A stretch of 43,278 nucleotides of DNA, from NCBI GenBank assembly GCA_021799495.1, contig JAJZAI010000028.1, positions 1 to 43,278 of the forward strand, written 5' to 3'. The DNA comes from Deltaproteobacteria bacterium (GTDB taxonomy: Bacteria > Desulfobacterota > Binatia > Binatales > Binataceae). Below are positions 26,038 to 43,278 of this stretch, piece after piece. Numbering within the stretch: position 1 is the stretch's first letter; each line of letters begins with the position of its first letter. Position numbers and translations under genes: made by a program. The notes under the pieces are model-generated. The model had not been told where the DNA came from. It saw only the letters and a program-made list of their open reading frames with translations, and did not search any database.

Positions 26038-26188
26038 GATGCGGCTCCGGCGACGCCCGCGCGTCCTGCTTCAAAATAATCATCCGGCGCCGCCCGTCAA
26101 ACCAATCGGTGAGCGGCGGCGCGCTTGACAGCACGTGCGTCGCCGTCCTAGCGAAGAGGTTGAACGCCGCCAGGAGGTCCAGCGGACG

Positions 26189-27877
26189 ATGCGATACGAC
26201 CTGATAATCCGCAACGGCGCGATCGTTGACGGAACCGGCGCGCCGGCCTGTTTCGGCGACGTCGGAATCGCGCAAGGGCGAATCGCGGCGTGCGGCGAAG
26301 TGGATGGCGCCGCAGCGCGCGAAATCGACGCCACGGGCCTGATCGTCGCGCCCGGCTTTATCGATCCGCATACCCATTACGACGCGCAGATTTGCTGGGA
26401 CCCGCTCGTCTCGTGTTCGTCGTGGCACGGCGTGACGACGGTGATAATGGGCAACTGCGGCGTCGGGCTGGCGCCGTGCAAGCCCGGCGAACGCGAGATC
26501 GCGACCTGGAACCTCGTGCACGTCGAGGCCATTCCGCATGACGTATTGGCGCGCGGAATCACGTGGGACTGGGAGACCTTCCCGGAATACATGTCGGCGG
26601 CGGCGCGGCGCGGGCTGGGAATAAACGCCGGGTTTTTGGCGCCGCTGTCGCCGTTCCGGCATTGGGTGATGGGCGAGGAGGCGATGGAACGCGCGGCGAC
26701 GCCGGCGGAAACCGAACGGATCGCCGGCCTGCTGGGCGAGGCGTTCGCGGCCGGCGCGTTCGGATTCTCGCTGACCGTGATGCCGCAGCATCTGGGGTAC
26801 AAGGCCAAGCCGCTTGCCTGCCGGATGGCGAGCGACGACGAGCTGCGGAGCTACGCGCGGGCGCTGGGAGAGTCGGGCCGCGGCGTGATCGAAATTGCGC
26901 TGACCAAACAGCCGAGCGGCCTTTCGGATCGCGAATATCAACTGATCGACATGCTCTCCGAATCAAGCGGGCGGCCGGTGACCTGGCTCAATCTGCGCGA
27001 TCGCGACGACGCGCCCACGGCGTGGACGGAGACGCTCGAGCGGGCGGAGCCGCTGCTGCGCCGCGGATGCGCGCCGCAGGTCGCGGTACGGCCGTTGATC
27101 GTCGAGTTCAACCTGCGCAATCCGTTTTTGTTCGCGAGCATGAACTCGATGAAGCCGGCCTTCGGCGACAAATCGGCGGAAGCGCAAACGCGCCATTATT
27201 CCGACGCCGGTTTCCGCCGGAAATTTGCCGAGGAACTTGGCCGGCGCGCGGTCTTTCACGACCTGTGGGAGCGCACGCAAATCAAAGAGGCGCGCGACAC
27301 GCGGCTTCAATCGCTGCAATGGAAAACGATTGCGCAGGCGGCGCGCGAGCGCGGCGCAGAACCGCTCGACCTGTTTTTCGATCTCGCGATCGAAGACGGG
27401 CTCGCGACCGATTTCATGATTCCGTTGCTGGACACGGACGAGCCGCGCGTGGCGGCGAAATTCAGCGATCCGCGCACGATGATTGGAATCTCCGACGGCG
27501 GCGCGCACGTCGATATGCTGTGCAACGCCGGCTATCCGACCTATTTGATTGGAAAGTACGTGCGCGAGCGCCGCGCGCTCGGCCTCGAATATGCGATCAA
27601 GCGGATCACGTCGGAACCGGCCGCGTTCTTCGGAATCGCGGATCGCGGCGCGATCAAGCCGGGGATGGCGGCCGATCTCGCGATTTTCGACCTCGCGACG
27701 ATCGGATGCGAGGAGCGGCCCGAAGTGCGCAACGACCTGCCGGGCGGAGGCCGCCGGCTCGTGACCGAGGCGCGCGGAGTGCGCTACACGCTGGTGAATG
27801 GCGAGATTCTTTTCGACGGCGGCGTCCATAGCGGCGCCACTCCCGGCCGCGTGCTGCGGCCCGGAAGCGCGGCGTAG
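26189..27877 (+). CDS. Amidohydrolase, N-acyl-D-amino-acid deacylase-like
   Basis: A 562-residue metal-dependent hydrolase of the COG3653/D-aminoacylase group. The start at ATG 26189 follows AGGAGG at 26172-26177. It shows the entry beta-domain (YDLIIRNGAIVDGTGAPACF) and the HxH metal site in FIDPHTHYDAQICWDPL. GVTTVIMGNCGVGLAPCKPG and the late Asp site GISDGGAHVDML are present. The C-terminal return is AIKPGMAADLAIFDL. Related proteins hydrolyse N-acyl-D-amino acids or other amides, and the actual substrate is unknown. A second amidohydrolase follows after 47 bp, probably in one operon. Confidence 0.85.
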   Translation: MRYDLIIRNGAIVDGTGAPACFGDVGIAQGRIAACGEVDGAAAREIDATGLIVAPGFIDPHTHYDAQICWDPLVSCSSWHGVTTVIMGNCGVGLAPCKPGEREIATWNLVHVEAIPHDVLARGITWDWETFPEYMSAAARRGLGINAGFLAPLSPFRHWVMGEEAMERAATPAETERIAGLLGEAFAAGAFGFSLTVMPQHLGYKAKPLACRMASDDELRSYARALGESGRGVIEIALTKQPSGLSDREYQLIDMLSESSGRPVTWLNLRDRDDAPTAWTETLERAEPLLRRGCAPQVAVRPLIVEFNLRNPFLFASMNSMKPAFGDKSAEAQTRHYSDAGFRRKFAEELGRRAVFHDLWERTQIKEARDTRLQSLQWKTIAQAARERGAEPLDLFFDLAIEDGLATDFMIPLLDTDEPRVAAKFSDPRTMIGISDGGAHVDMLCNAGYPTYLIGKYVRERRALGLEYAIKRITSEPAAFFGIADRGAIKPGMAADLAIFDLATIGCEERPEVRNDLPGGGRRLVTEARGVRYTLVNGEILFDGGVHSGATPGRVLRPGSAA

Positions 27878-27924
27878 TTCCGCGCCGCCAAAAGCAAACC
27901 GGGGCGACAAGGAGCGCGAAGAAA

Positions 27925-29028
27925 ATGACGGCCTCCAAGGTGATTTCCGCCGATTCCCATATGACCGAACCCGGCGACCTCTGGGTCGAGCGGCTGGATC
28001 GCAAATTCCGCGACCGCGCGCCGCGCGTCGTCAAAAACGAGAAGAGCGGCCCGGCGTATCTGTTTGTCGGTCCCGGAATACATCCCCTTGCCGTGGCCGC
28101 CGCGTTCGCGGCCGGCAAAGGCGGCGCGGAACTGCGCGAGCATATGAATCACGGCTACGAGGCGGCGCGTCCCAGCGGATGGGATCCCGTCGAGCGGCTC
28201 AAGGACCAGGACCTGGACGGCGTACGCGCCGAGGTTCTTTATTCCACGCTGGGAATCGCGGTGTTCGCGATGCCCGAGGTCGAACTTCAACTCGCCTGCC
28301 TGCGCGCGTACAACGACTGGCTGGCCGAATTTTGCGCGCACGATCCAAAGCGGCTGATCGGGATTGGCCTCTATTCGCTCGCCGCGCTGCCCGACGTTTC
28401 GGAAATCGAGCGGTGCGCGCGGATGGGGCTCAAGGGAATCATGATCCTGGCTTCCGACGGCAACGACCTGCCCTACTCGGACGAGCGCTTCGATCCGCTC
28501 TGGCGCGCCGCATCCGCCGCGAATCTGCCGATTTCATTGCACAAGCCGCTGGTGTCGGGGATGCCGCTTACGCCCGCGATGCCGACCATGGCGGACCTGC
28601 AGATTCACGTGATTCACGTCGTCGAGCAGTGCGTCACGCGGCTTGCCTATGGCGGCGTCTTCGAACGCTTTCCCTCGCTCAAAATCGTCAGCGCTGAAAA
28701 CGACGTGGGCTGGATTCCGAACTGGATCCATCGGCTCGACCACGTCAACAGCAAGATTCCCAGCTCGCGGCGATTGCCGTTGCCGCCCGGCGAATATATA
28801 CGGCGCAACGTATGGGCGACGTTTCAGGACGATCCGCTGGGTCCGGCGACCTGGAAATTCTTCGGCGCGGACAACTACATGTGGGCGTCGGATTTCCCGC
28901 ACGCCGACTCCACATTTCCCAATTCGCTCAAAGTGATCGAGGAAAATTTCGCCGGAGTTCCGGAAGACGTGACGCGCAAAATAGTATTTGACAATGCGCG
29001 GCGGCTGTACGGAATAGATATCAACTGA
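27925..29028 (+). CDS. Amidohydrolase_2 family TIM-barrel hydrolase/decarboxylase
   Basis: A 367-residue protein of the PF04909 type, which includes ACMSD-like decarboxylases and amide or lactone hydrolases. The N-terminal metal motif is D10-x-H12 (ISADSHMTEP), a variant of the usual D-x-H-x-H. Later blocks are WLAEFCAHDPKRLIGIGLYS, VIHVVEQCVTRLAYGGVFER, FPSLKIVSAENDVGWIPNW and the C-terminal WASDFPHADSTFPNS. AAGGAG-like purines lie 10 bases before the ATG. It is convergent with the CoA-transferase gene. The substrate cannot be told. Confidence 0.83.
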   Translation: MTASKVISADSHMTEPGDLWVERLDRKFRDRAPRVVKNEKSGPAYLFVGPGIHPLAVAAAFAAGKGGAELREHMNHGYEAARPSGWDPVERLKDQDLDGVRAEVLYSTLGIAVFAMPEVELQLACLRAYNDWLAEFCAHDPKRLIGIGLYSLAALPDVSEIERCARMGLKGIMILASDGNDLPYSDERFDPLWRAASAANLPISLHKPLVSGMPLTPAMPTMADLQIHVIHVVEQCVTRLAYGGVFERFPSLKIVSAENDVGWIPNWIHRLDHVNSKIPSSRRLPLPPGEYIRRNVWATFQDDPLGPATWKFFGADNYMWASDFPHADSTFPNSLKVIEENFAGVPEDVTRKIVFDNARRLYGIDIN

Positions 29029-29058
29029 CGCGGAAATAGGGGCGCCGCGGATCGCCGC

Positions 29059-30279
29059 TTACACCGGTCGATTGATCAGCACGCCGGCGCGCTCGAGCTC
29101 GCCGATTCGCTCCGCGCCGTAGCCCAGATAGCGGCGGAGAACCTCCGCGTTGTGCTCGCCAAGCAGCGGCGCTTCGAGATCGAGGTTTTCGGGAAATTCC
29201 GAAAACTTCAGGGGAAATCCCGGAAGCTCCATATCGCCCAAAACACGATCGTGCGCGCGCGCGACCGTACCGCGTTCGCGCATGTGACGATGGTTGATCG
29301 CTTCCTCTATCGATAGAACCGGCGCGGACGGCACTCGATACTCATTGAGGCGCGCCATGATCGCGTCGTCGCCCGGCAAAGACAGCAGCCAGCCCTGGAT
29401 TATGTCGAAAAGCACGTCGTTGTTGCGGACCCGATCGGCGTTCGTGCGGAAACGCGGATCTTCGGACAGATCGCGCCGGTCCATCGCCGTGCACAATTGC
29501 CGCCATTGATGCTCGACGCCGCCGATTATCACGATGTAATGCTTATGACCGCGAAAGATGCTGCACGGCGATCCGTACGAAAGATGTTTCCCGGCGCGAG
29601 TCAACTTGATTTGACCGCCGCTCAGACTGTACATCTGCACGGCGGTGTGATGGCAATTGAAATAGGCGTCGAGCAGCGCAATATCGATATACTGACCCTT
29701 CCCGGTGCGCTCCCGATGCAGCAGGGCCGACACAATGGCCAGGGCCGCATGCACTCCCGTGCTCACGTCTCCCAGCGCCGCCATCGGAAAGTATGGTTGT
29801 CCGCCGGGCTCGCCGATCATCGAGGTAATGCCGGAATACGCCTGGGCGATAAAGTCGTAACCGGGCAGATGGGCGAGCGGACCTGTCTGTCCGAAAGTCG
29901 ATATCGAGCACATCACGACGCGCGGATTCAACGCCGCGACCGCCGGATAATCGAAGCCGATACGGCCGATTACGCCCGGCGCGAAATTTTCCACGACAAC
30001 GTCGACCTTCGCGACCAGATCGCGAAGAATCGCCACGGCTTCCGGCCGTTTTATATCGAGACAGACGCCGAGCTTGCCGCGATTTTGCTGAATGTAATAG
30101 CCGCTGCGGCCATTTTTCAGGTATGGCAATTCCCGCGTGCGATCGCCGTCCGGCGCAATTTCGACTTTAATAACCTCCGCGCCCATCTCCGCCATCATCC
30201 GGGACGCCGTCGGTCCGGCGATGTATTGCGTGAAGTCGAGAACCTTGTAGCCGTCGAGGATATGTGGGGAAGCTGCCAT
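29059..30279 (-). CDS. CaiB/BaiF family (class III) CoA-transferase
   Basis: A 406-residue enzyme that moves CoA between organic acids. The N-terminal LDGYKVLDFTQYIAGPTASR and AEMGAEVIKVEIAPDGDRTR are typical. The catalytic Asp is D171 in ALGDVSTGVHAALAI. LSYGSPCSIFRGHKHYIVI and the C-terminal LLGEHNAEVLRRYLGY follow the family pattern. Together with the acyl-CoA dehydrogenase and thiolase-like genes nearby it fits CoA-dependent degradation of organic acids. It has its own promoter candidate upstream (30399-30372). Confidence 0.92.
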   Translation of the reverse strand: MAASPHILDGYKVLDFTQYIAGPTASRMMAEMGAEVIKVEIAPDGDRTRELPYLKNGRSGYYIQQNRGKLGVCLDIKRPEAVAILRDLVAKVDVVVENFAPGVIGRIGFDYPAVAALNPRVVMCSISTFGQTGPLAHLPGYDFIAQAYSGITSMIGEPGGQPYFPMAALGDVSTGVHAALAIVSALLHRERTGKGQYIDIALLDAYFNCHHTAVQMYSLSGGQIKLTRAGKHLSYGSPCSIFRGHKHYIVIIGGVEHQWRQLCTAMDRRDLSEDPRFRTNADRVRNNDVLFDIIQGWLLSLPGDDAIMARLNEYRVPSAPVLSIEEAINHRHMRERGTVARAHDRVLGDMELPGFPLKFSEFPENLDLEAPLLGEHNAEVLRRYLGYGAERIGELERAGVLINRPV

Positions 30280-31399: not shown

Positions 31400-34090
31400 G
31401 TGGCGGATTTGGACAGCGGAGCGCTTGCGCCGGCGGCAGGCTATGCGGCCGACGAGGTTTTGCGCGACGGCGGTTCGATTCATATCCGCGCGGTTCGCCC
31501 CGACGATCGCGAGCGCCTGCGGGAACATTTTTATGGCTTGAGCGAGAGATCGATTTATTTCCGCTTTTTCGGCCTGAAACGCTCGCTCAACGACGCCGAA
31601 CTCACCCGGCTCACGAATCTCGACTTCGTCGATCATGTCGCGCTGGCGGCGACGCTGCGCAACGATCGCGGCGAACGGTTCATCGGGGTGGCGAGATACA
31701 TCCGCTGTCCCGATCGGTCGCGGGCCGAAGTCGCCTTCGCGGTGCTCGACGAGCATCAGGGACGCGGCATCGGCACGCTCCTGCTCGAACATCTCAGCCG
31801 GATCGCGCGCGCCGGCGGAATCGTGGAACTGCAGGCCGACGTGCTCGGCGACAACAACCGGATGCTCGGGGTCTTCGCCAAAAGCGGATACAAAGTGACG
31901 CGGTCGGCCGAAGCCGGAGTGATTCACGTCGCATTTCCGACGGCGGAAACCGAACAATCGGTCGAGGCGGCAGCCACCCGAGAGCGCGTAGCGCTCGCGC
32001 ATAGCGTGGAGTGGATCTTGAAGCCGCGCGCGGTCGCCGTGATCGGCGCCTCGCGCAATTCCGGCAAGCTAGGCGGCGCGATTCTCGCGAATCTGCTTCA
32101 GTCCGGATACAAAGGCAAAATTTTCTCGGTCAACAAGGAGGCGGAGCAAGTTTCGGGACTGCGATGCTATCCAGGCGTCGCGGCGATCGGCGAGCAATTC
32201 GATCTTGCGATCGTCGCCGTGCCGGCCGAAGTGGTGGAAACCGAATTAGCCGCCTGCGCGAAAGCCGGCGCGCGCGCGGCGATCGTCGTTGCGGCCGGAT
32301 TTGGCGAACGCGATCCGGAAGGCGCGGCGCGCGAGAAGCGGATATTCCAACTCGCGCGGCGGTCCGGAATGCGCCTGGTCGGGCCGAACTGCCTCGGCGT
32401 GCTCAATACCGACGCCAGCGTGCGGCTGAATGCGACGTTCGCGCCGGTCGAGCCGCCGCCAGGTAGCGTTGGAATGTTTTCGCAGAGCGGCGCGCTCGGA
32501 ATCGCGATACTCGATCACGCCCGCAAGCGCCGTCTCGGACTTTCCACCTTCATCTCCGCAGGCAATCGCGCCGACGTTTCGAACAATGACCTGATGGCCT
32601 ACTGGGCCGACGATGCGAATACTTCCGTGGTCGCGCTGTACCTCGAAACGGTCGGCAATCCGCGCACTTTCTCGCGACTCGCGCGCGAAGTCGCGCGCCG
32701 CAAGCCGATTGTCGCTGTGAAGTCGGGACGGCACGGCGCGGCGGTGCGCGCGGTCGCGGGCCAGTCAAGCTCGTTTGCGACGATCGATCTTGCGGTGGAC
32801 GCGCTCTTCGAGCAGGCGGGCGTGATCCGCACGGAAACGCTGGAACAGATGTTCGACGTCGCGGCGCTGCTGGCCGCGCAGCCGCTTCCAGGCGGCCCGC
32901 GCGTGGGGGTCGTAACCAACGCGCACGGTCCAGCCGTGCTCCTCGCGGACGCCTGCGAATCCCGCGGGCTTGAGTTGGCGGCGCGCGGGACCTCGGCCGG
33001 CGAACGCCAACTAAATAATCCGATCGACCTCGGCGCGAACGCCGGCGGCGGCGATTTCGCGGCGGCGATTTCCGGACTCGGCGGCGATCCCACAGTCGAT
33101 GCGGTGGTGGCGATTTACGTGCCGCCGATCGCGTCGTTCGCTCGGGAGGTCGCCGCCGGAATCGCCCGCGGCGCGTCTGATACGCCGGCTCACAAGCCGG
33201 TGTTGAGCGTTTTCGTCTCGACCGCCGGCCGCCCGCTCGAGCTCGACGGCGGCAGCCGCGGCGTCATCCCCTGTTATGATTTTCCGGAAAACGCCGCCGC
33301 CGCTCTCGCATCCGCCTTTCGCTACGGGCGCTGGCGCGCGCGCACTCACGGCGAGGTTCATCGCTTGAGCGATTTCGCCCGCGACGCCACGCGCGCGATT
33401 ATCGAACGACTGATGCGCGAATCCGGCGCCGGCGCCTGGCTGAAACCCGACGACGCCGCCGCTCTGTTGCGCACCGCCGGAATCGAAGTCGCCCCGGCCG
33501 AGCAGGCCGCCATCGAAACCGCGCGCCTCGCCGCCGATCGGGTAGGCTATCCGCTGGTGGCGAAAGCGATCGCGCCCGGATTGATTCACAAGAGCGATGC
33601 GGGCGGCGTGATTATGAATCTGCGCTCGGGCGACGAGGCCGACGACGCCGCGCGCCGGCTGGCTGAACGGATGGAATCGATCGGTGCGCGGCTCGACGGC
33701 GTGCTCCTGCAAAGACAGATTGACGGCGGCCACGAGATGATGGCCGGCGTCGCCAGCGACGCCACATTCGGTCCGTTGCTGTTCGCCGGTCTCGGCGGAA
33801 TTTCCGCGGAAATTTTGAAAGACGTTTCCTTCCGGCTGCATCCGGTAACGGATTCAGACGCGCGCGAGATGGTCGGCGAATTGCGCTCGAGCCGGATGCT
33901 CGACGGCTACCGCGGCGGTTCCCACGGCGACCGCGAAGCGTTCGCCGCGCTGATCGCGAAGCTGTCAGCGCTCGTCGAATACGCTCCCGAAATCGGCGAA
34001 ATACATCTCAATCCAATCAAGGTTTTGGAGCCTGGCCGCGGCGCCGTGGTGGTCGACGCCAGGATTCGGATGGCCGCGGCGACGCGGTGA
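31400..34090 (+). CDS. Pat-like protein acetyltransferase: GNAT plus acyl-CoA synthetase (NDP-forming) fold
   Basis: An 896-residue protein starting at GTG 31400. Residues about 25-180 are a GNAT domain with the acetyl-CoA loop Q-G-R-G-I-G at 120-125. Residues about 205-650 follow the ADP-forming acetyl-CoA synthetase alpha part: AVAVIGASRNSGKLGGAILA, GPNCLGVLNTD and FSQSGALGIAILDHA. Residues about 665-890 are an ATP-grasp beta part (VGYPLVAKAIAPGLIHKSDA). The phosphohistidine position of active synthetases (SHTGAL) is Q455 here (AVAGQSSSFA). Loss of this His marks Pat/PatZ lysine acetyltransferases, whose synthetase part is regulatory. GNAT is N-terminal, as in some actinobacterial Pat, and not C-terminal as in enterics. 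Confidence 0.88.
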   Translation: MADLDSGALAPAAGYAADEVLRDGGSIHIRAVRPDDRERLREHFYGLSERSIYFRFFGLKRSLNDAELTRLTNLDFVDHVALAATLRNDRGERFIGVARYIRCPDRSRAEVAFAVLDEHQGRGIGTLLLEHLSRIARAGGIVELQADVLGDNNRMLGVFAKSGYKVTRSAEAGVIHVAFPTAETEQSVEAAATRERVALAHSVEWILKPRAVAVIGASRNSGKLGGAILANLLQSGYKGKIFSVNKEAEQVSGLRCYPGVAAIGEQFDLAIVAVPAEVVETELAACAKAGARAAIVVAAGFGERDPEGAAREKRIFQLARRSGMRLVGPNCLGVLNTDASVRLNATFAPVEPPPGSVGMFSQSGALGIAILDHARKRRLGLSTFISAGNRADVSNNDLMAYWADDANTSVVALYLETVGNPRTFSRLAREVARRKPIVAVKSGRHGAAVRAVAGQSSSFATIDLAVDALFEQAGVIRTETLEQMFDVAALLAAQPLPGGPRVGVVTNAHGPAVLLADACESRGLELAARGTSAGERQLNNPIDLGANAGGGDFAAAISGLGGDPTVDAVVAIYVPPIASFAREVAAGIARGASDTPAHKPVLSVFVSTAGRPLELDGGSRGVIPCYDFPENAAAALASAFRYGRWRARTHGEVHRLSDFARDATRAIIERLMRESGAGAWLKPDDAAALLRTAGIEVAPAEQAAIETARLAADRVGYPLVAKAIAPGLIHKSDAGGVIMNLRSGDEADDAARRLAERMESIGARLDGVLLQRQIDGGHEMMAGVASDATFGPLLFAGLGGISAEILKDVSFRLHPVTDSDAREMVGELRSSRMLDGYRGGSHGDREAFAALIAKLSALVEYAPEIGEIHLNPIKVLEPGRGAVVVDARIRMAAATR

Positions 34091-34168
34091 GGCGTTTCCA
34101 GGACGCCGCCGCCGGCTTGATTTCCGCCTCCAAATGGCGCGCTATGCGACAATGGAGGCACATCGCCG

Positions 34169-34951
34169 ATGCCGCTGACGCGCCTTAATGGAATCGAACT
34201 CTATTACGAGATTCACGGCGAAGGCCCGGCGCTCGTTCTCGCGCACGGCGGCGGAGGCAGCCATCTGAGCTGGTGGCAAAACGTGCCGGCGCTCGCAAAA
34301 CGTTACCGATGCGTAACGTTCGACCATCGCGGTTTCGGCGCGTCGCGCGACGCCGCTGACGGACGCGGACTCGCCGCTTTCGTCGAAGATCTGCGGCAGT
34401 TGCTGGACCATCTCGGCGTCGAACGCGCCGCGCTGGCGGGACAATCGATGGGCGGTTGGACCGTTCTCGGCTTCGCGGCGCGTTTTCCAGAACGCGTAAG
34501 CGCGCTCGCGCTCTGCGACACCACCGCAGGGATGGACGACCCGGAGATCGTCCGCGAACAATCGAAATTACGCGAATCCAGCAAGGGCGGCCTGGCGCAA
34601 ATCCTGACGCGCGCTTACGCTCCGGATTTTCCAGCACGGGAACCGGCGCGATGCTTCCTCTACCAGCAGATTTCGGGCTTGAACGTGAACGTGCCGGCGA
34701 ATCTTCTGCCGGTCCTGATGAGCCTGCGGCACAGCGTCGAACCAGTCATCCGGCATCGAATACCCACCATGCTTCTGGTTGGCGAGCTGGATGCGCTCGC
34801 GCCGAGGTCTGTGATGGAGCTGATGGCGCGGCGGATTCCGCACGCGCGGTTCGTCGCGGTTCCCGGCGCGGGACATTCCGTCTATTTCGAAAAGCCCGAG
34901 GAATTCAACCGCGAGCTTGGCGATTTCCTCTACGCCGCCGGAGTCGGCTGA
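34169..34951 (+). CDS. Alpha/beta hydrolase
   Basis: A 260-residue soluble hydrolase. It has the oxyanion motif AHGGGGSHLSWWQNV (residues 25-39), FDHRGFGASRD, the nucleophile S93 in GQSMGG, the catalytic Asp in VGELDALAP, and the His in PGAGHSVYFEKPEEF. The sequence resembles 3-oxoadipate enol-lactonase and related C-C or ester hydrolases, but these cannot be separated by motif alone. GGAGG lies 11 bases before the ATG. It stands 78 bp after the Pat-like gene on the same strand and is convergent with the LLM gene. Confidence 0.87.
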   Translation: MPLTRLNGIELYYEIHGEGPALVLAHGGGGSHLSWWQNVPALAKRYRCVTFDHRGFGASRDAADGRGLAAFVEDLRQLLDHLGVERAALAGQSMGGWTVLGFAARFPERVSALALCDTTAGMDDPEIVREQSKLRESSKGGLAQILTRAYAPDFPAREPARCFLYQQISGLNVNVPANLLPVLMSLRHSVEPVIRHRIPTMLLVGELDALAPRSVMELMARRIPHARFVAVPGAGHSVYFEKPEEFNRELGDFLYAAGVG

Positions 34952-34978
34952 ACCGGCCGCGTGCACCTTCGCGCACGG

Positions 34979-36052
34979 TCATAGTCGATCGATCAGCTCG
35001 CGTGAAATCTCGTCGAGACACTCCTCGTAGCGATCGATCGGCGGATTTATGACCAGTTGGTCCAGGCCCGCTTGTTCCAACGCCCGAATCTGATCGATTA
35101 GCTCGTCGCGGGAACCGACCAGCGTGGTCGAACGAATCGCCTCGGCGGTAATGAACCGCCGCTCCTCTGGAAGCAGGTAAATCACGTGGCCGCGATGCAG
35201 GTGCAAGTGGCGTTCGTCCGCCGGAATTTCCATCCGCGCGAACGCTTCGGCGTATGCCTCGAACACCGGGCGGGCGTCCGGCGGAATCGTGAGCGCGTTG
35301 ACGTAGCCGGCCGCGACTCCGTGCAGCGCCGCGGCGACCCAATGGCCCGTCATGTCAACGACGCGCGGTGAATCAACCGCTTCGCCCGGTCGAAGCACGC
35401 AGATATGCGTGAGCGAGACGCACGGCATCCGTCCGTTCCATTTGCGGCCCGCGGCGCGCGCGCCCGCGCCAGCCTGCGCGAATATCGCCTCCATCCGCGC
35501 CGGCGTCGTGACGCGGCCGGTCATGATTCCGTCGCCGAACTCGCCCGCCAGCGCCAAAGCCCTGGGCGCGTTGGCCGCCACGTATAGCGGAAGCGGCGCG
35601 TCGAGATTGATGAAATGCCGGTCGCGATGGAGAAACCGAATCTTGCGATCGATCCCTTCGAGATGACTCGTGGTCTCGCCGCGTTTCAGCAGGTCGTGGA
35701 TAACGCGCGCCTGTTCGCGGAATTCCGCATGCTTGACCGGCTTCAGTCCCATCACGCGCCGTCCGGTATGGCCGGCGCCGAATCCTAGATCGACGCGGCC
35801 GGGCGCGATTTCGTTAATCGTCGCGATCGAATGGGCGGTGACCGCCGCGATACGGTTCGAGGCCACGGAAATTCCCGTGCCGATGCGGATTTTATCGGTC
35901 GCCGCCGCCGCGAGCGCCATGCACGCGTAAACGTCGCCATAGATCATGTGCGAATCGGGAAACCACGCCTCGGCGAATCCGCGCGACTCGGCATACCGGG
36001 CGTCGGCGGCCGCGCGTCCGGGCCGTGGCATGACCAACGTTCCAAATTTCAC
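34979..36052 (-). CDS. LLM-class flavin (FMN/F420)-dependent oxidoreductase
   Basis: A 357-residue luciferase-like monooxygenase/reductase. I place the start at GTG 36052 because GGGAGGAAG lies 4-5 bases before it and the protein then begins VKFGTLVMPRPGRAAADARY. An ATG at 36082 is less likely. Typical features are ESRGFAEAWFPDSHMI, KIRIGTGISVASNRIAAVTA, PGRVDLGFGAGHTGRRVMGL and LPLYVAANAPRALALAGEFG. Whether it uses F420 or FMN cannot be decided from sequence. It is the last gene of the minus-strand run and starts 33 bp after the M20 gene. Confidence 0.88.
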   Translation of the reverse strand: MKFGTLVMPRPGRAAADARYAESRGFAEAWFPDSHMIYGDVYACMALAAAATDKIRIGTGISVASNRIAAVTAHSIATINEIAPGRVDLGFGAGHTGRRVMGLKPVKHAEFREQARVIHDLLKRGETTSHLEGIDRKIRFLHRDRHFINLDAPLPLYVAANAPRALALAGEFGDGIMTGRVTTPARMEAIFAQAGAGARAAGRKWNGRMPCVSLTHICVLRPGEAVDSPRVVDMTGHWVAAALHGVAAGYVNALTIPPDARPVFEAYAEAFARMEIPADERHLHLHRGHVIYLLPEERRFITAEAIRSTTLVGSRDELIDQIRALEQAGLDQLVINPPIDRYEECLDEISRELIDRL

Positions 36053-36085
36053 GGGCTTCCTCCCGCAGTTCGCCGATGCCACCGC

Positions 36086-37276
36086 TCAGGCGGCGTCCGC
36101 GCACATTCGTTGAATTACATCGAGCATCAATCCGGTTCCGCGCTCGAACGCGGCGCGCGGAATCGATTCGTCCGGCTGATGCGCCTGCGCGTAGTCGCCC
36201 GGACCGCAGATGAGCGTCGTGATTCCAGCCTCCGCGAACCATGCGCCGTCGGTCGCGAAGGGCGCGCCGCCCGACGCGCTCGCGCCCGTCGCCGCGAACA
36301 AGGCGCGTTCGAGCCCGCTGCCGGACGACGCCAGCATCGCCGGAGCGATCACCGGACGGCCCACTTCGATCGCCGCGCGATGGTTCTCCGAAGCGTAATC
36401 GTGCGGATCGATTTCGCGCATCAGCGTTTGGACTTCGCGATAAAGCGCCAGCGGATCGCGCTTCGGCAACGAACGATAGGTCACCTTCAGCGAACATTCC
36501 TCGGCGATGATGTTCGAGGCGAGTCCGCCCGCGATCACGCCGAAGTTCATCACGTCGTGTGGCGAGTCCGGAAACAGCGCGGCGAACTCCTCATCGCGCG
36601 CCAAACGCCGCTCGGCCTGCAGGCGGCCGATCGCGTCGATAACCTTGCCCATCACCGCAATCGCGTTGACGCCCATATGGGGCGCTCCGCTGTGGCCGCC
36701 GCGGCCGCGCACGCGCACCTCGAAGGCGCAAATGCTTTTATGGGCGCTCAACACCGCGAACGACGTCGGCTCGCCGATCCACGCCAAATCAGGCCGCGGA
36801 ATTTCGCCCAACAGTTCCGGCAGCGCCGGCGCCGCCCGTTGCGCGCCGAGCATCCCGATTTCCTCGTCGGCGGTGAAGACAAACACCAGCGGGCGCTTCA
36901 GCCGGCCGCGATCCAGGGCGAGCGCCGCCGTTGCGCATTGCGCAAGAAATCCCTTCATGTCCGAGGAGCCGCGGCCGTAGATGCGCTCTTCGTCCATTTC
37001 CATCCGGAACGGATCGCGCGTCCATCCGGGCTGGCCCGCGGCGGGAACAGTGTCGAGATGGCCCGAAATTATCACTCCGCCCGGCCGCGGTTCGCCCGCC
37101 CATGCGACCAGATTCGCCTGCGCCACGCCGGCGATCTGAAGCCGCTGCAAAGCCGTGCGAAATCCCGCGCCATCCATCAGATCCGCGAGATATTCCATCG
37201 CCGGAACGTCGGTATTGACGCTGACCGTATCGAACGCGATCAGCCGCTCGAGAATTTCGTATTGGCCTTTGTCCAT
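36086..37276 (-). CDS. M20 metallopeptidase, acetylornithine deacetylase-like (ArgE/DapE)
   Basis: A 396-residue di-zinc amidohydrolase. Metal and catalytic motifs in order: SGHLDTVPAAGQPGW (His and Asp), YGRGSSDMKGFLA (bridging Asp), FTADEEIGMLGAQR (Glu pair), WIGEPTSF, and the late His in QAHQPDESIP. The middle dimerisation lid contains GGHSGAPHMGVNAI. It looks like ArgE, but no arginine genes are near. Its place in a peptide-transporter/thiolase operon suggests deacylation of an imported N-acyl or peptide compound, so I give no gene symbol. Confidence 0.9.
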   Translation of the reverse strand: MDKGQYEILERLIAFDTVSVNTDVPAMEYLADLMDGAGFRTALQRLQIAGVAQANLVAWAGEPRPGGVIISGHLDTVPAAGQPGWTRDPFRMEMDEERIYGRGSSDMKGFLAQCATAALALDRGRLKRPLVFVFTADEEIGMLGAQRAAPALPELLGEIPRPDLAWIGEPTSFAVLSAHKSICAFEVRVRGRGGHSGAPHMGVNAIAVMGKVIDAIGRLQAERRLARDEEFAALFPDSPHDVMNFGVIAGGLASNIIAEECSLKVTYRSLPKRDPLALYREVQTLMREIDPHDYASENHRAAIEVGRPVIAPAMLASSGSGLERALFAATGASASGGAPFATDGAWFAEAGITTLICGPGDYAQAHQPDESIPRAAFERGTGLMLDVIQRMCADAA

Positions 37277-37294
37277 GGCTGACGCCTCCGGATT

Positions 37295-38488
37295 TTACGG
37301 ATCGCGCGTGACGACGATGCCGCTGCCGCGCAGCATCGGCGAGCCGTCGATCGCGCACACAGCGGAGGCGCCGGCGATTTGGCGCCGTTCAGCGCGATCC
37401 GTCACCTGACGCACCGCCTCGGCTATATGCCCCATCCCGTGCATCCGCCCCTCGCTCAGGCTGCCGCCGAAAGTATTGATCGGCAGTTCTCCGTCAAGCG
37501 CGATTCGGCCGCCGGCCACAAAATCCGCTCCTTCGCCCTCGCCGCAAAATCCGGCGGCCTCGAGCCAATACAGGGTGGAGGGATTGAAACCGTCATATAG
37601 CTGCGCCGCATCCATCTCTTCCGGTCCGAGGCCGGCCGACGACCAGAGCTTTTGCGCAAGCGATCCGCCGCACGCCATATAGTCGTCGAGAGTATAGTAA
37701 AGCAGCGTGCGCCGGCGCGCGGTATTTTGACCATACCCGGCGATGTACGCGGGTTGATTGCGCAGATCGCGGGCGCGGTCGGCGGTCGTGACAATCAACG
37801 CGACGCATCCGTCCACCGGCACATCGCAATCGAACAGGCAGAGCGGCTCGGCGATCATGCGGGCGTTGAAATAGTCCTCGCGCGACATCGGCGTGAAATG
37901 GAAAAACGCGCGCGGATTGAGGTTGGCGTTGCGCCGGCTGTTGAGCGCGAGCGCCGCCAGCGCTTCGCGCGTCGCGCCGTAACGATGCATGTACCGCCGC
38001 CAGGCGAATGCGTGCGTCTGCACGATCGACGCCGCTCCGTATGGCGCGATAAATTGCGCGTCCCCCGACGCGCGCGGCGCGCCTTTGCTTGCGGCGCTTC
38101 CGCCGCGCAGAATGGGACGATGAAGCGCGCGCCATACGAGCGCATAATCGCACGCTCCCACGAGCAGCGCATTCACCGCTTCGATCACCGGACTCGCGAT
38201 CATCCCGGTTTCGATCTGCGCGTACCAGCGTACGTCCGCGGCGGCGCCGAGATGGTTCAGAACGAACGAAACGCTGACGACGTCTTCGCCGTCGCGGTTT
38301 CCCGCGCCCGCGAATGGCGATTCCGGATAGGTCGCAAGACCGTCGATTCGCCGCGCATCAAGGCCGGCGTCCTCGATCGCCGCGCGGCAGGCGTCCAGCG
38401 CGAGCAGGCCAAGCGGCTTTTCCGGCTTGCGAGTGATTTCCGAATAGCCAATCCCGACGATCGCCGTTTTTCCACGTCCGTGCCACAT
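37295..38488 (-). CDS. SCP2-thiolase-like protein (acetyl-CoA acetyltransferase family, no usual Cys)
   Basis: A 397-residue thiolase-fold protein. It has KTAIVGIGYSEITRKPEKPL at the start, then DGLATYPE, and a C-terminal half with MDAAQLYDGFNPSTLYWLEA and PINTFGGSLSEGRMHGMGHI. Where classical thiolases carry the nucleophilic Cys, this one reads QIETGMIASPVIEAVNALLV, with no Cys. This places it with SCP2/lipid-transfer thiolase-like proteins such as Ltp2, an aldolase that works with a DUF35 partner on steroid side chains. Such a partner gene lies 35 bp upstream. The precise reaction is inferred. Confidence 0.82.
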   Translation of the reverse strand: MWHGRGKTAIVGIGYSEITRKPEKPLGLLALDACRAAIEDAGLDARRIDGLATYPESPFAGAGNRDGEDVVSVSFVLNHLGAAADVRWYAQIETGMIASPVIEAVNALLVGACDYALVWRALHRPILRGGSAASKGAPRASGDAQFIAPYGAASIVQTHAFAWRRYMHRYGATREALAALALNSRRNANLNPRAFFHFTPMSREDYFNARMIAEPLCLFDCDVPVDGCVALIVTTADRARDLRNQPAYIAGYGQNTARRRTLLYYTLDDYMACGGSLAQKLWSSAGLGPEEMDAAQLYDGFNPSTLYWLEAAGFCGEGEGADFVAGGRIALDGELPINTFGGSLSEGRMHGMGHIAEAVRQVTDRAERRQIAGASAVCAIDGSPMLRGSGIVVTRDP

Positions 38489-38523
38489 CGACCCGTTTCC
38501 CGCGCGCGCCGCGCGCCATAGCT

Positions 38524-38949
38524 CTAGATGATCCGAAATTGCGGAATCGCCACACCGTCGCCGCGATCCTCGAAACAGACTTCAACCGGCGCGCCGATCC
38601 GCACCCGTTCGCGTTCGCCGATCGGAAGATTCGCTACCATCATAAGCATCGGCTGCTCGGCAATCTCAACGACGATATTGATGAACGGCGCGTCGTTCTC
38701 AAAGCCGGCGACGTCGCGCTGATGCATCACGGTGAAGGAAAATACCGCGCCACGCCCGCTGACCGGCGTGAAAGCGAGTTCGCGCGCGAGACACGCGTCG
38801 CAGAAATTGCGCGGCGGATGATTGTAATATCCGCACGCCGAGCATCGCTGGATTACGAGCCGCCCGGCGCGCGCCGCGTCCCAAAACGGCCGGGTCAGTT
38901 CGTCGGCGGCAGGAACCGGTTTTCTCGTTGTTTCAACTTCTCCGCTCAT
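38524..38949 (-). CDS. Zn-ribbon/OB-fold protein (DUF35 family)
   Basis: A 141-residue protein, starting at ATG 38949 (MSGEVETTRKPVPAADELTR). The rubredoxin-like zinc ribbon is CSACGYYNHPPRNFCDAC (two C-x2-C pairs). It is followed by an OB-fold (GRGAVFSFTVMHQRDVAGFE, then VRIGAPVEVCFED). DUF35 proteins form complexes with thiolase-like enzymes and stabilise or channel CoA substrates. The adjacent thiolase-like gene, in the same direction, is the obvious partner. Confidence 0.88.
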   Translation of the reverse strand: MSGEVETTRKPVPAADELTRPFWDAARAGRLVIQRCSACGYYNHPPRNFCDACLARELAFTPVSGRGAVFSFTVMHQRDVAGFENDAPFINIVVEIAEQPMLMMVANLPIGERERVRIGAPVEVCFEDRGDGVAIPQFRII

Positions 38950-39082
38950 TTTGCGCAATCGCCTCACGCATCGCCTGAACCGTTCATATTCGCCCGCGGC
39001 GCGTCCAGCCGCGCCGCACGATCGGTTTCTAGCAACAGGCGCCGGCGGCGGACAAACCGCCGCGATCCACGAAACCCGGCGC

Positions 39083-40168
39083 TCACGCCGCGTTCGACGG
39101 ATCGAAGCGGTCGCGCAGATGATCGCCCAAAAAATTGAACGCCATCACCGCGGCCGAAATGAAAAGTCCCGGCATCAATATCCACGGGAAATACGCGATC
39201 GTCTGCGGATCCATCGCCTGGCTCAGCAGATTCCCCCAGCTCGCCGCCGGTTCCTGAATTCCAAGCCCGAGCAGCGAAAGCGCGCTCTCGCCGAGAATGT
39301 ATCCCGGAATCGACAGCGACGCGTTCACGGCCGCGAAGCCGATCACCGCCGGGATGATATGGCGGAACAGGAGCCGCCGGCGCGATCCGCCCAACGCGCG
39401 CGCCGCCTCGACGTATGGCGCCGCCCGCACCGACGCCGCCATGCCGCGAATCACCCGCGCGAATCCCGCCCAACTGATAAACGCCATGATCGCGACGATC
39501 AGGAAGAAAGTCGCGGTCGTGCTTAGTCCCGACGGAATCACCGCCGCCAGCGCGAGCAGGAAATAGAAGCTCGGCAGCGACATCTCGATTTCGCACATCC
39601 GCATGATCGCGCTGTCCGTGTATCCGCCCATCATTCCGGAAAACGCGCCCACCATGATTCCGAGCGAAAAACTGATCGCTACTCCCACCAGCCCGATACA
39701 CATGCTGACGCGCGCGCCATAGACGATTCGCGAGAATAGGTCGCGCCCCAGATTTTCGCTGCCCATCAGGAAAAACGGCGGCGCGCCGGGCGCCGTCGTG
39801 AACAGGCGCCCGCGATAGAAGAGATGCACGAACGTCCGCCGCGATCGATCCTCCACGTAATGCCGCGCCATCGGATTGTCCAACCGCATCGGAAAAGCAT
39901 AAAGGAAGCCGCGGCTCCAGTCGGAAGGCGGCGCCAAATGGAGCCGCATCGGCGGGCAATCCGGCATCGTGCGCCACTGCCGCGCCGGATCGTAAGGCGC
40001 GATCATCGGCGACGCGGCGGCGAAAATATAAAACGCGAGCAGCATGACCGCCGACAATTTCACCGTCAGCGACGCCGCGCGCCATTCGCGTCCGGCCGCC
40101 GCGCGCCATCCGCGCCGCGCCGCGGCGGCGTGATTTTCCGCGCGAATATGCGCCGCGCCCGCGTTCAT
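39083..40168 (-). CDS. Peptide/nickel-type ABC transporter permease (DppC/OppC-like)
   Basis: A 361-residue inner-membrane permease. It has an N-terminal membrane segment (LTVKLSAVMLLAFYIFAAAS) and a long periplasmic insert of about 80 residues before the family block MGSENLGRDLFSRIVYGARV. Several membrane helices follow, with the EAA loop YVEAARALGGSRRRLLFRHI and the C-terminal PGLFISAAVMAFNFLGDHLR. The insert with its 'PPMRLHL' and 'FVHLFYRG' strings is known from one subgroup of these permeases. The start overlaps the stop of the DppB-like gene (ATGA). Confidence 0.93.
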   Translation of the reverse strand: MNAGAAHIRAENHAAAARRGWRAAAGREWRAASLTVKLSAVMLLAFYIFAAASPMIAPYDPARQWRTMPDCPPMRLHLAPPSDWSRGFLYAFPMRLDNPMARHYVEDRSRRTFVHLFYRGRLFTTAPGAPPFFLMGSENLGRDLFSRIVYGARVSMCIGLVGVAISFSLGIMVGAFSGMMGGYTDSAIMRMCEIEMSLPSFYFLLALAAVIPSGLSTTATFFLIVAIMAFISWAGFARVIRGMAASVRAAPYVEAARALGGSRRRLLFRHIIPAVIGFAAVNASLSIPGYILGESALSLLGLGIQEPAASWGNLLSQAMDPQTIAYFPWILMPGLFISAAVMAFNFLGDHLRDRFDPSNAA

Positions 40169-41145
40169 TGCGTCTCGAGCGTCGTGAAATTCACGCGCGG
40201 ATCGACCGCGACCAGCGCCATATCGGCGAGCAGGTTGCCCAGCAGCAGCAGCACCGTTCCCATCAGCACCGATCCCATCACCAGCGGCACGTCGCGTTTC
40301 ATCACCGCGTTCAGCAGCAACAGTCCAAGCCCCTGCAGGTTCATCACCGATTCGACCAGCGCGGCGCCGCCGAGCAGGTCGGCCAGGCTGTAACCCGCCA
40401 TCGTCACGAACGGATTCAGCGCGTTGCGCAGCACATGCTTGTAGAGCACCGTCGATTCCGGCAGTCCCTTGGCGCGCGCCGTGCGCACGTAATCGGCGTT
40501 TTTGATTTCGAGAATCTGCGACCGCATCAGCCGCATCAGCGACGCCACTCCCGCCAGCCCCAGCACCAGCGTCGGCAGAATCAGATGGTCCGCGCGATCG
40601 GCGATACGGCTCCATAAATCCAGCGACGCGTAATCCGGCGACATCGTCTGCCCGATCGGAAACCATCCGCTCCACAACGCGAAATCGATCGCCAGAAACG
40701 CCAGGAAAAACGCCGGAACCGACATCCCGAGGAACGACAGGAACGAAAGCGTCCGGTCGAGCATCGAGTTCTGCCGCACGGCCACGATAATGCCGATCGG
40801 TATCGCCAGCAGCCACGTCAAGGCCATGCTGCTCAGCGCCAGGATCACGGTGTTCAGCACGCGCGGGCCAATCAGATGAATCACATCGACGCGATACGCC
40901 AGCGACACGCCGAGCCGGAGATGCGCGATACCCCACAGCCAGCGCGCGTAACGCAGCATCAGCGGCTGATCGAGGCCGAATTCCGCCTCCATCTGCTTGA
41001 GCACCCGCGGCGAAATCCTCGGATCGAGCGCGAGGTTGGCGACAAAATTCCCCGGTATCAGCGACATCGCGGCGAACGAGATAAAAGTGATTCCGATGAT
41101 CAGCGGAATCATGATCGCTATTCGCCGCGTCAGGAATCTCAGCAT
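40165..41145 (-). CDS. Peptide/nickel-type ABC transporter permease (DppB/OppB-like)
   Basis: A 326-residue permease with about six membrane segments. It begins with the typical LRFLTRRIAIMIPLIIGITF then SLIPGNF. Family features include LGLDQPL-type FGLDQPLMLRYARWLWGIAH, FLGMSVPAFFLAFLAIDFAL, the EAA loop YVRTARAKGLPESTVLYKHV, and the C-terminal DMALVAVDPRVNF. It overlaps the DppC-like gene by four bases and follows the binding-protein gene by 21 bp. This fixes the transcription order. Confidence 0.94.
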   Translation of the reverse strand: MLRFLTRRIAIMIPLIIGITFISFAAMSLIPGNFVANLALDPRISPRVLKQMEAEFGLDQPLMLRYARWLWGIAHLRLGVSLAYRVDVIHLIGPRVLNTVILALSSMALTWLLAIPIGIIVAVRQNSMLDRTLSFLSFLGMSVPAFFLAFLAIDFALWSGWFPIGQTMSPDYASLDLWSRIADRADHLILPTLVLGLAGVASLMRLMRSQILEIKNADYVRTARAKGLPESTVLYKHVLRNALNPFVTMAGYSLADLLGGAALVESVMNLQGLGLLLLNAVMKRDVPLVMGSVLMGTVLLLLGNLLADMALVAVDPRVNFTTLETQ

Positions 41146-41166
41146 CGTATCGCTCGCGCGCCCGCG

Positions 41167-42888
41167 CTATTGAGCGCGAAACTCGATCCACTCCGGATGG
41201 TAAAAACCCCAAACGGTCGGATAGTAATTTTCCAGCGTATTGCGATAGGCGATATAGGTGACGGCGCGAACGGTTTCGATTATCGGCAACTGATCGTGCA
41301 GGATTTGCTGGATTTGCCAGTAGTACGGCGCCCGCTTATACGGATCGACCACCATCGTGCCCTCGTCCATCAGATGGTCGATTTGCGCCTCCCACGGCGT
41401 CGCGGGTTTCGGCTGCGCGGGATCCCAGATATGCAGATTGCCGGAAGAGCGCAGGAAGTCGGAAGCATCGTTCGGCTCGATCGTGCCGGTGAATCCAATC
41501 AGCACGCAGTCCCAATCGAACGACGAATCCAGCGCCTTGACCAGCGTGATGAAGTCGAGCGGCCGGTAATTCACTGTGATTCCAAGCTGCTGCAAATCCT
41601 GCTTGAAGATCGCGCACATCTGATCGCGCACCGGCACGCCGGTGTTGGTCGTCAGCCGGAAGACCAGCGGATGGCCTTCCGGATCGCCGCGCACGCCGGG
41701 CCGAATCATCCGATAACCCGCACGATCAAGAATTTGCGCCGCTTCTTCAAGATCGTAGTCGTAATCCTTGAGATTAGGATTGTGGTAGATTTTATTCTCC
41801 GGCGACACGTCCGAAACCGCCGGAACCGCCAGTCCGCGATAACACAGATCGATCATGCCCTGCTTGTCCACCGCATGCGCCAGCGCGCGCATGAAATTCA
41901 CGTCGGTAAACCATTTAAGCCGCGGATCGACCACGCCGCCGCGCACGTAATGGCGCGGGTTGCGGTTGAACGCGAAAAACAGCGAGCCGGTGTCGATTCC
42001 AACTTTCCGCACGGTGATATCGAGCCGCTTCGCCGCCTGCTCCAGCGGCCAGACCTCTTCGGGCCGCGGATGGTACACGTCGGTCATGCCGCTCTGGAAT
42101 TGCAGATATTGCGCATTTTGATCGGGCACGATCAGATGGACTTCGCCCTTGAGCCGCGGGAGCGGGGCGCCGTGCTCGTCGCGCATCCAGTAATCGGGAT
42201 TGCGCCGGTAAGCGATTAGCTGCGCGGGCACGTAGCGCGTCATCAAAAACGCTCCGAGTCCGATCAGCCGGTCCGGCGGCGTGTCGATTCCCCAGATACG
42301 GTTGAAGCGGCCGGCTTCGTACGCGCCTGCCAGCGCGTGGGCCGGCAAAATCGCGAACTGCATCGAAGACAGTATCGGCGCGAACGGCCGCGGCAGCCGC
42401 GCCACAACAGTATAGTCGTCCGGCGCCGACACGGCGATCGGCTTTCCGTCGATCATCATCGCCGAAACCATCGAATTGGGAATTTTCGGATCGTAAATCA
42501 CGCGCATCGTGAACAGCACGTCGCGCGCCGTGAAGGGCGCCCCGTCCGACCATTTCACGTCGTGGCGCAGATGGAACGTCAGGGTCTTGTCGCCGTCGCT
42601 GAACTTCCAGCTTTGCGCCAAACCGGGCTCGAACAGCGTCGTGCGCGGATTCACCCGCGTCAGGCTCTCGAACATGTCGCCGGTCGCAACGGCCGAGGCG
42701 GAATCCGTGACCAAGACCGGATTAAATGTGCCCGGATCGCTGACCATCGAATCGTACAGCGTTTGCGTCGCCGCATGATCGTTGCGCGGCCTGCTCACCC
42801 GGCATCCGCAGATCGCGGTGGCGACCGCGGCGGCTATCGCGACGAACGCAAGCCGCCGCCCGCGCGAACCCGAATCAGTATCAGCCAC
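41167..42888 (-). CDS. ABC transporter substrate-binding lipoprotein (SBP_bac_5, DppA/OppA-like)
   Basis: A 573-residue periplasmic binding protein starting at GTG 42888. The signal peptide (RRLAFVAIAAAVATAICGC) ends in a plausible lipobox with C29 lipidated (C27 is an alternative). Family 5 blocks follow: GTFNPVL, GLAQSWKFSDGDKTLTFHLR, WSDGAPFTARDVLFTMRVI, DYTVVARLPRPFAPILSSM, and FTDVNFMRALAHAVDKQGMI. Proteins of this class bind peptides, nickel complexes, opines or sugars, so ligand identity is open. The start overlaps the previous gene's stop by eight bases (GTGGCTGA). Confidence 0.92.
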   Translation of the reverse strand: MADTDSGSRGRRLAFVAIAAAVATAICGCRVSRPRNDHAATQTLYDSMVSDPGTFNPVLVTDSASAVATGDMFESLTRVNPRTTLFEPGLAQSWKFSDGDKTLTFHLRHDVKWSDGAPFTARDVLFTMRVIYDPKIPNSMVSAMMIDGKPIAVSAPDDYTVVARLPRPFAPILSSMQFAILPAHALAGAYEAGRFNRIWGIDTPPDRLIGLGAFLMTRYVPAQLIAYRRNPDYWMRDEHGAPLPRLKGEVHLIVPDQNAQYLQFQSGMTDVYHPRPEEVWPLEQAAKRLDITVRKVGIDTGSLFFAFNRNPRHYVRGGVVDPRLKWFTDVNFMRALAHAVDKQGMIDLCYRGLAVPAVSDVSPENKIYHNPNLKDYDYDLEEAAQILDRAGYRMIRPGVRGDPEGHPLVFRLTTNTGVPVRDQMCAIFKQDLQQLGITVNYRPLDFITLVKALDSSFDWDCVLIGFTGTIEPNDASDFLRSSGNLHIWDPAQPKPATPWEAQIDHLMDEGTMVVDPYKRAPYYWQIQQILHDQLPIIETVRAVTYIAYRNTLENYYPTVWGFYHPEWIEFRAQ

Positions 42889-43278
42889 GCGGCGCTTCCG
42901 GACCCGCCCCGGCCATGCCGAGACTCGTCGTTTTCGTCACGCCATTCGGCGCGAGCTCGAAGGCGCCGCCGGGAATCGGCGGATCGGCGACCGGATTCTC
43001 GTAGGTGAACGCCACTCTTGCGCCGGTCCGCGGAAATTTCGCCGTGATCGAGCAGGGCGTTTCGATTCCCTTGCCCGCATCGCGCCAGTCTCCGTAATCG
43101 ACGCGATAACCGACGCGGCCGTCGGCCAGCTTTTCGGTGACGCTGGCGAGCCTGCGATCCACGCCGATTCCGATTTCGTCGGTAACGCCGCCCGGCTCGC
43201 GATAGACGAGGATGGTCTGATTGTCGTTGTGCGGTCCCGGCAGGGTCATCGAAGCGGGCGGCAACGCGAGCATCGATC
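42881..43278 (-). CDS. C-terminal part of a protein of unknown function (cut by the right edge)
   Basis: The frame is open to the end of the window, so the first ATG seen (43273) is probably internal. The visible 131-132 residues are beta-rich with alternating strands (TILVYREPGGVTDEIGIGVD, VGYRVDYGDWRDAG, PCSITAKFPRTGARVAFTYE). It ends with GGAFELAPNGVTKTTSLGMA, which recalls the last strands of LolA-like lipoprotein-carrier folds. That likeness is weak. It overlaps the binding-protein gene by eight bases and so belongs to the same operon. Confidence 0.6.
   Translation of the reverse strand, partial: SMLALPPASMTLPGPHNDNQTILVYREPGGVTDEIGIGVDRRLASVTEKLADGRVGYRVDYGDWRDAGKGIETPCSITAKFPRTGARVAFTYENPVADPPIPGGAFELAPNGVTKTTSLGMAGAGPEAPRG

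Follow-up and report, generated by a model that had tools for sequence, protein, structure and literature searches.

The 43,278-nt stretch analysed here (the window; contig JAJZAI010000028.1 of the Deltaproteobacteria bacterium assembly GCA_021799495.1, family Binataceae) ends in a block of minus-strand genes that joins a peptide-type ATP-binding cassette (ABC) importer to a set of putative degradative enzymes (34979–43278). A first-pass annotation had taken this block for a single operon serving one substrate. Comparison with relatives does not sustain that proposal, as the genes are dispersed there and a promoter-like element marks the enzyme genes only; the block very probably consists of two units placed end to end, the front part of an importer operon and a self-standing enzyme cassette with its own element. 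The window spans all of contig C82 in genome G000 (3.43 Mb, 98% complete), and its minus strand carries seven complete genes and one truncated by the contig end. This agrees with the earlier count of at least eight genes, whose identities were borne out by Pfam matches for all seven complete proteins (E 1.9e-14 or better). The features are:

42881–43278, minus strand: C-terminal part of the lipoprotein gene 'LolX', truncated by the contig end, with the remainder on contig C62 (~297 aa in G003)
41167–42888, minus strand: SBP_bac_5 solute-binding lipoprotein (PF00496, E 1.6e-76)
40165–41145, minus strand: OppB-type permease (PF00528 and PF19300; best NCBIfam model Opp4B, below cut-off)
39083–40168, minus strand: OppC-type permease, the final gene of the importer half (PF00528; 4-bp overlap with OppB)
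39027–39055, minus strand: promoter-like element TTGTC-N15-TTGCTAGAA, lying 77 bp upstream of the OB start codon
38524–38949 (or 38967 with a GTG start), minus strand: zinc-ribbon/OB (DUF35, ChsH2-type) partner protein (PF12172 and PF01796)
37295–38488, minus strand: thiolase-fold protein, a proposed coenzyme A (CoA)-thioester C-C lyase (PF22691)
36086–37276, minus strand: M20 deacylase, ArgE-like (PF01546 and PF07687)
34979–36052 (or 36082 with an upstream GTG), minus strand: luciferase-like (LLM) oxidoreductase (PF00296)
34169–34951, plus strand: convergent alpha/beta hydrolase, which bounds the block

In transcription order, from the lipoprotein to the LLM gene, the spacings were an 8-bp overlap, 21 bp, a 4-bp overlap, 133, 35, 18 and 33 bp, and the two overlapping pairs and mostly sub-40-bp gaps described earlier were therefore measured as such. 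The sole wide spacing lies between OppC and the OB gene (38950–39082). It had been singled out before, with a size of 134 rather than the 133 bases counted here.

Gene order in relatives was mapped with a simple purpose-made gene caller, by which genes may be missed or misplaced. In all, 76 genomes were searched; 41 of these form the family (taken as Binataceae), and f5 denotes another Binatia family. Orthologs of the thiolase-fold protein (at least 72% identity) occurred in 18/76 genomes, comprising 14/41 family genomes and 4/4 f5 genomes, and those in the 17 other genomes were 72–92% identical to the window protein. The importer solute-binding protein (SBP) had an ortholog in 37/41 family genomes, including 23 of the 27 that have no cassette core. 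Among the 18 core-bearing genomes, the importer adjoined the cassette in six (G000, G001, G003, G004, G005, G006) and was located elsewhere in eight (G002, G010, G012, G018, G024, G026, G027, G030; ambiguous in G024, where contigs are short), with distant SBPs only in the other four. The dispersal of the genes in relatives, which the first-pass annotation had named as speaking against its reading, was thus found. The junction between importer and cassette was confined to one genus, where it was present in 6/7 members. In G002, OppC lies directly beside the same hydrolase that bounds the window block and the cassette sits ~21 kb off on the same contig, an arrangement we read as the junction undone. 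This hydrolase adjoins M20 in G004, G012 and G026 as well.

Within the cassette, the pairing of a DUF35 protein with a thiolase-like protein was confirmed as an Ltp2-ChsH2-like arrangement. The OB gene was near the thiolase-fold gene in 17/18 genomes, at distances such as the 35 bp of the window and ~1.1 kb in G044; the G012 contig starts in the thiolase-fold gene, which puts its OB gene out of view. A short-chain dehydrogenase/reductase (SDR) gene stood ahead of the OB gene in G001, G005 and G026, with a SnoaL-like gene in between in G026. The G003 thiolase-fold gene (L051:12580-13771) reads in two frames, from either a frameshift or an assembly error.

The importer half is itself incomplete. 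No importer ATPase gene was found in the block, as had been reported, and the ATPases had been suggested to lie to the right or to be shared. Rightward of the window, the first 152 bases of contig C62 from the same genome match the window end with one mismatch, and beyond this overlap C62 encodes the remainder of the truncated lipoprotein, a TPR protein and a divergent amino-acid permease. Its TPR protein shares 96% identity with the G003 one, and the gene order is the same in G003, G004 and G006. The first 20 kb of C62 held zero OppD/OppF matches; this settles the ATPase question for the right side, and a rightward location was rejected. The suggestion fared better elsewhere in the genome. 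A PF08352 (oligo_HPY) search, which an ATPase without that domain would escape, returned two matches, adjacent on contig C46, whose best NCBIfam models were dipeptide/oligopeptide (Dpp/Opp) ATPases, below cut-off. This OppD/OppF pair neighbours SRP54 (ffh), KH, RimM, TrmD, L19 (rplS) and bactofilin genes, and abh46, an alpha/beta hydrolase gene, flanks it on the other side.

Related importer loci indicate where the pair came from. Of the 37 loci, 35 were covered (G022 and G040 were left out). OppD occurred within 5 kb after OppC in 15/35, either directly (G008, G014, G016, G017, G025, G027, G028, G034, G038) or behind intervening sequence (G007, G020, G030, G033, G035, G036). Genes other than OppD followed OppC in another 15/35, the cassette being the follower in 6 of these, and five loci were uninformative as the contig or stretch ended (G015, G029, G031, G037, G039). 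The complete importer operon of relatives occupies apparently the same site as the C46 pair, its neighbours having been recognised by eye. G007 retains an uninterrupted OppC-abh46-OppD-OppF order, and the abh46 proteins of G007 and C46 share 50% identity. Taken with the abh46-OppD-OppF order on C46, this puts the breakpoint of the importer operon probably between OppC and abh46, and the C46 pair is probably the partner of the window permeases. At the thresholds used, SBP and OppB genes of this type each occur three times in the window genome (contigs C82, C62 and C79) against a single ATPase pair, so sharing of this pair by three SBP/OppBC sets is likely. The further SBP-OppB-OppC sets of this genome are on C62 (L128:8680-11974) and C79 (L129:8385-11794), and OppD/OppF matches were absent nearby. 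A gene of ~505 aa stands between OppC and OppD in G030 (L125:1206-2720; a PF01425 amidase) and in G035 (L151:3978-5501), which indicates that the site behind OppC accepts other genes in another lineage too.

The 133-bp gap contains the promoter-like element, TTGTC-N15-TTGCTAGAA, readable as a -35 TTGTCC, an 18-nt spacer and an extended -10 TGCTAGAAA. Across the 41 whole family genomes, the pattern TTGTCN{13,17}TTGCTASAA gave six matches, one each in 6/7 members of the genus and all at the cassette head, with a single match in the window genome; the backward-read control gave three in the same genomes. The core TTGCTA[GC]AA occurred eight times in 99 stretches (1.34 Mb; 13 of 27 loci were excluded from this count as contigs of genomes already included), and 8/8 occurrences preceded the first cassette gene. 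Two of these eight (G002, G026) come from genomes where importer and cassette are apart: in G002 the element precedes the OB gene of the separated cassette; in G026 its right half lies ahead of the SDR gene. In G001 and G005 (right half only) the site likewise lies before the SDR gene. A longer pattern gave six matches, compared to 0–2 in each of 10 shuffled sets. Gap identity to G003, G006 and G004 was 86, 66 and 40%, respectively, against 71–93% for the flanking genes, which marks the element as the conserved part of the gap. We infer that it acts as a promoter rather than an operator.

Several observations weigh against two separate units. The element was derived from the same sequences in which it was counted, so the counts measure specificity and are no independent discovery; all six matches come from one genus, none was seen before the OB gene in G010 or G024, G005 keeps the right half alone and G012 cannot be judged, its contig starting in the thiolase-fold gene. 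A promoter or terminator in the gap had been named at the outset as what would split the block, and only the former has a candidate: no terminator was found in 38950–39082, and gap folding was no better than that of shuffled sequence (z -0.63). Over 34100–43278, terminator-like sites numbered 16 (8.9 expected) and a stricter consensus promoter scan gave zero sites (2.1 expected by chance). A terminator-free gap lacking a strict-consensus promoter leaves room for one long transcript, with read-through from the importer. Furthermore, SBPs within the junction genus differ from the window SBP by up to 27%, and retention of the junction in 6/7 genus members may reflect selection for co-expression.

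The same facts bear on a dedicated import-and-degradation operon, in which the SBP would bind a compound carrying both an amide and an acyl side chain for degradation by the M20, LLM and OB/thiolase-fold proteins. The common strand and tight gaps, the junction held by most of the genus and the terminator-free gap favour such an operon. Yet the SBP is widespread in family genomes devoid of the cassette core, importer and cassette coexist apart in eight genomes (one ambiguous), the element is found with the cassette only, and the LLM ortholog is not beside the cassette in 14/18 genomes. We consider a dedicated operon unlikely.

For the two-unit arrangement we propose the following history. Unit 1 would be the front part of a Binataceae Opp/Dpp-type importer operon (TPR, small lipoprotein, SBP, OppB, OppC), formerly complete with OppD/OppF genes that still lie beside ffh-rimM-trmD-rplS elsewhere, and the C46 OppD/OppF would energise the importer in trans. 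Unit 2 would comprise the DUF35-OB and thiolase-fold core, in some relatives with an SDR ahead, and an ArgE-like M20 that comes next in 11/18 genomes; the LLM gene would have joined last. This unit would have become the downstream neighbour of OppC in the ancestor of a single genus and would be transcribed from the gap element as a promoter. M20 would then free an acid from an N-acylated amine, and the OB/thiolase-fold complex would act on the derived CoA thioester by C-C cleavage in an Ltp2-ChsH2-like manner, with another acid. The modularity, the split site and the gap element are established by the genome comparisons, and the junction may benefit the cell, given its presence in 6/7 genus members.

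The M20 protein scored 295.6 bits with TIGR01892, two bits short of the equivalog cut-off of 297.7, and its best solved relative was the acetylornithine deacetylase 7rsf. M20 orthologs were present in 27/41 family genomes, including all 14 with the thiolase-fold gene (Fisher P = 0.001, uncorrected for relatedness). Judged by this similarity, M20 most likely frees an acid or an amine from an N-acyl compound. The LLM gene adjoined M20 in 4/18 genomes, and a paralog 61% identical to it lies on contig C56 in another setting, partly common to G001, G002 and G026. No NCBIfam F420 LLM model scored above cut-off (best TIGR03842, 110 bits vs 295). The LLM gene is probably a recent addition, a late recruit to the cassette.

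The best solved relative of the thiolase-fold protein was 6ok1_A (Ltp2 aldolase, E 1.1e-55), and those of the OB protein were 9myr_B and 6ok1_B (ChsH2 DUF35); the partner chains in the 9myr and 6ok1 entries are related to the thiolase-fold protein as well. According to PMC12329534, Ltp2 uses Tyr294 as base (YDHF motif), Tyr344 as acid and His296 in the oxyanion hole, and Sal uses Tyr302 as base and Cys304 as acid (YDCY). The Ltp2 base is kept as Tyr298 (YDGF) in 18/18 close orthologs. Against Ltp2-like catalysis, the acid Tyr344 is replaced by Arg348 and His296 by Gly300, again in 18/18, and the Sal acid Cys304 is likewise replaced by Gly300 in YDGF. YDGF and GR-HG, with Gly300 and Arg348, were also found in 12/12 relatives at ~40% identity. 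The thiolase nucleophilic cysteine is replaced by Ile92 (aligned with 7yvy, position read by eye). WYAQIETG was invariant across 15 aligned thiolase-fold sequences, an alignment that omits three of the 18 orthologs, G003 (two frames), G005 (split over contigs) and G012 (start cut), all of which were included in the residue comparison as far as covered. A Vibrio homolog in the alignment used for the residue comparison carries the Ltp2 signature instead. Lyase function is assigned here from homology, and structure models of the lipoprotein and the thiolase-fold protein were unusable (mean pLDDT 42 and 39), both of which also count against our proposal. The pair likely cleaves a C-C bond in a CoA thioester, using a proton donor other than that of Ltp2 or Sal.

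The pair could instead be a true Ltp2/Sal-type steroid side-chain aldolase, with the block degrading a sterol-like compound. Ltp2 being the best solved relative, the ChsH2-like partner and the kept base tyrosine are what such an enzyme would have, and two neighbours point weakly the same way: the bounding hydrolase matches HsaD (82 bits vs cut-off 400) and the G001 SDR matches a 7-alpha-hydroxysteroid dehydrogenase (169 bits vs cut-off 367). The replacement of both the Ltp2 and the Sal acid in 18/18 close orthologs speaks against it, as does the PRK07855 lipid-transfer model, which reached 296 bits against a cut-off of 469. Among the NCBIfam models listed for the few neighbours that were run, no steroid model exceeded its cut-off, no genome search for steroid-ring enzymes having been made. 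A steroid aldolase is, on balance, improbable.

A role of the cassette core in tryptophan (kynurenine) degradation is very doubtful: the pair adjoins tryptophan dioxygenase and kynureninase genes in the f5 Binatia G050, G056 and G063 and in L104, L106 and L109, and a Cyclase-family gene follows it in Rhodospirillales L112 (a like gene has the same place in L113), but tryptophan dioxygenase was found in 0/14 core-bearing Binataceae genomes and, of the copies in 4/4 f5 genomes, that of G044 is on another contig than the pair. In L048, L050, L104, L106 and L109 (Binatia, f5 or near) the pair neighbours genes for tryptophan dioxygenase, kynureninase, LLM, CobW, NIPSNAP and carboxyltransferase. In L112 and L113, thiolase-fold orthologs of 56–57% identity are clustered with a Peripla_BP_6 ABC importer, two CaiB-type CoA transferases, a Cyclase-family protein and an AMP-binding ligase (Pfam matches from L112 alone). 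L108 (record CAMBFS010000137.1), titled a Klebsiella pneumoniae metagenome-assembled genome, carries a Binatia-type OB/thiolase-fold pair; the record is therefore probably misnamed or mixed.

A fuller picture, which we offer tentatively as possible rather than probable, extends the two-unit arrangement. The OB/thiolase-fold pair would found a lyase subfamily of its own, recognisable by YDGF with invariant Arg348 and His350 and lacking both the thiolase cysteine and the tyrosine acid of Ltp2. It would be expressed from a cassette-specific promoter and would act in a distinct way on CoA thioesters derived from M20-freed N-acylated amines, and the importer ATPase pair stranded at the old locus would energise three permease sets.

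The remaining importer genes and the left flank gave further observations. Across the family, the importer operon widely includes the TPR protein and small lipoprotein encoded upstream of the SBP (e.g. L051:5639-8198; C62:1-2404, L179). The lipobox Cys of the 'LolX' lipoprotein is kept in 11/11 aligned members. DUF4292 matched weakly in 7/11 (cut-off E 1, best E 2.3e-5), DUF2092 also weakly, and no solved structure matched the lipoprotein profile at E 1. LolB matched in 1/11 members (E 0.059), and 'LolX' is therefore a mere label. The SBP resembled dipeptide- and heme-binding proteins about equally and nickel-binding ones less. On the plus strand at 31400–34090, an 896-aa protein looks like a fusion of a GNAT acetyltransferase with an ADP-forming acyl-CoA ligase (listed models all below cut-off) and is adjoined by a CBS/universal-stress-like protein; speculatively, this ligase-like neighbour could supply a CoA thioester to the cassette. 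Both strands at 25129–30279 encode a trypsin/PDZ protease, Amidohydro_3 and Amidohydro_2 amidohydrolases and a CaiB-type CoA transferase.

A literature search found no paper that has four or more of five terms for this gene set. In the main text of the Binatota genome paper (PMC8262859), a term search met none of peptide, ABC transporter, luciferase, steroid or aromatic, and 'amino acid' once, in the methods. The block illustrates that genes resembling one operon may be neighbours by chance, a question that comparison of gene order with relatives is able to settle. It is also a clear example of an ABC importer operon whose breakpoint is known and whose ATPase genes stayed behind. Its parts are mostly ordinary; the interesting one, worth specialist attention, is the lyase subfamily, a highly conserved set of thiolase-fold proteins whose active-site motif matches neither Ltp2, Sal nor thiolases.

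In comparison to known systems, the importer resembles Opp/Dpp importers in having an SBP_bac_5 protein, two BPD_transp_1 permeases (OppB, OppC) and two oligo_HPY ATPases, the latter here on C46. It differs from Opp/Dpp-type peptide or nickel importers in its additional TPR protein and small lipoprotein, and in ATPase genes that are split off and apparently serve three SBP/OppBC sets. The M20 protein shares a full-length match with ArgE-type acetylornithine deacetylases, whereas it falls just below the equivalog cut-off and adjoins the thiolase-fold gene in 11/18 genomes. Ltp2-ChsH2(DUF35) (PDB 6ok1) and its relative CtSal-CtShy (PMC12329534) likewise combine a thiolase-fold protein with a zinc-ribbon/OB partner, and share with the pair a C4 zinc ribbon (CxxC-x10-CxxC) and a YD-F motif with the base Tyr. 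The pair is set apart by YDGF in place of YDHF or YDCY and by Arg348 in place of Tyr344 (Ltp2) or Gln352 (Sal), and its gene neighbourhood differs.

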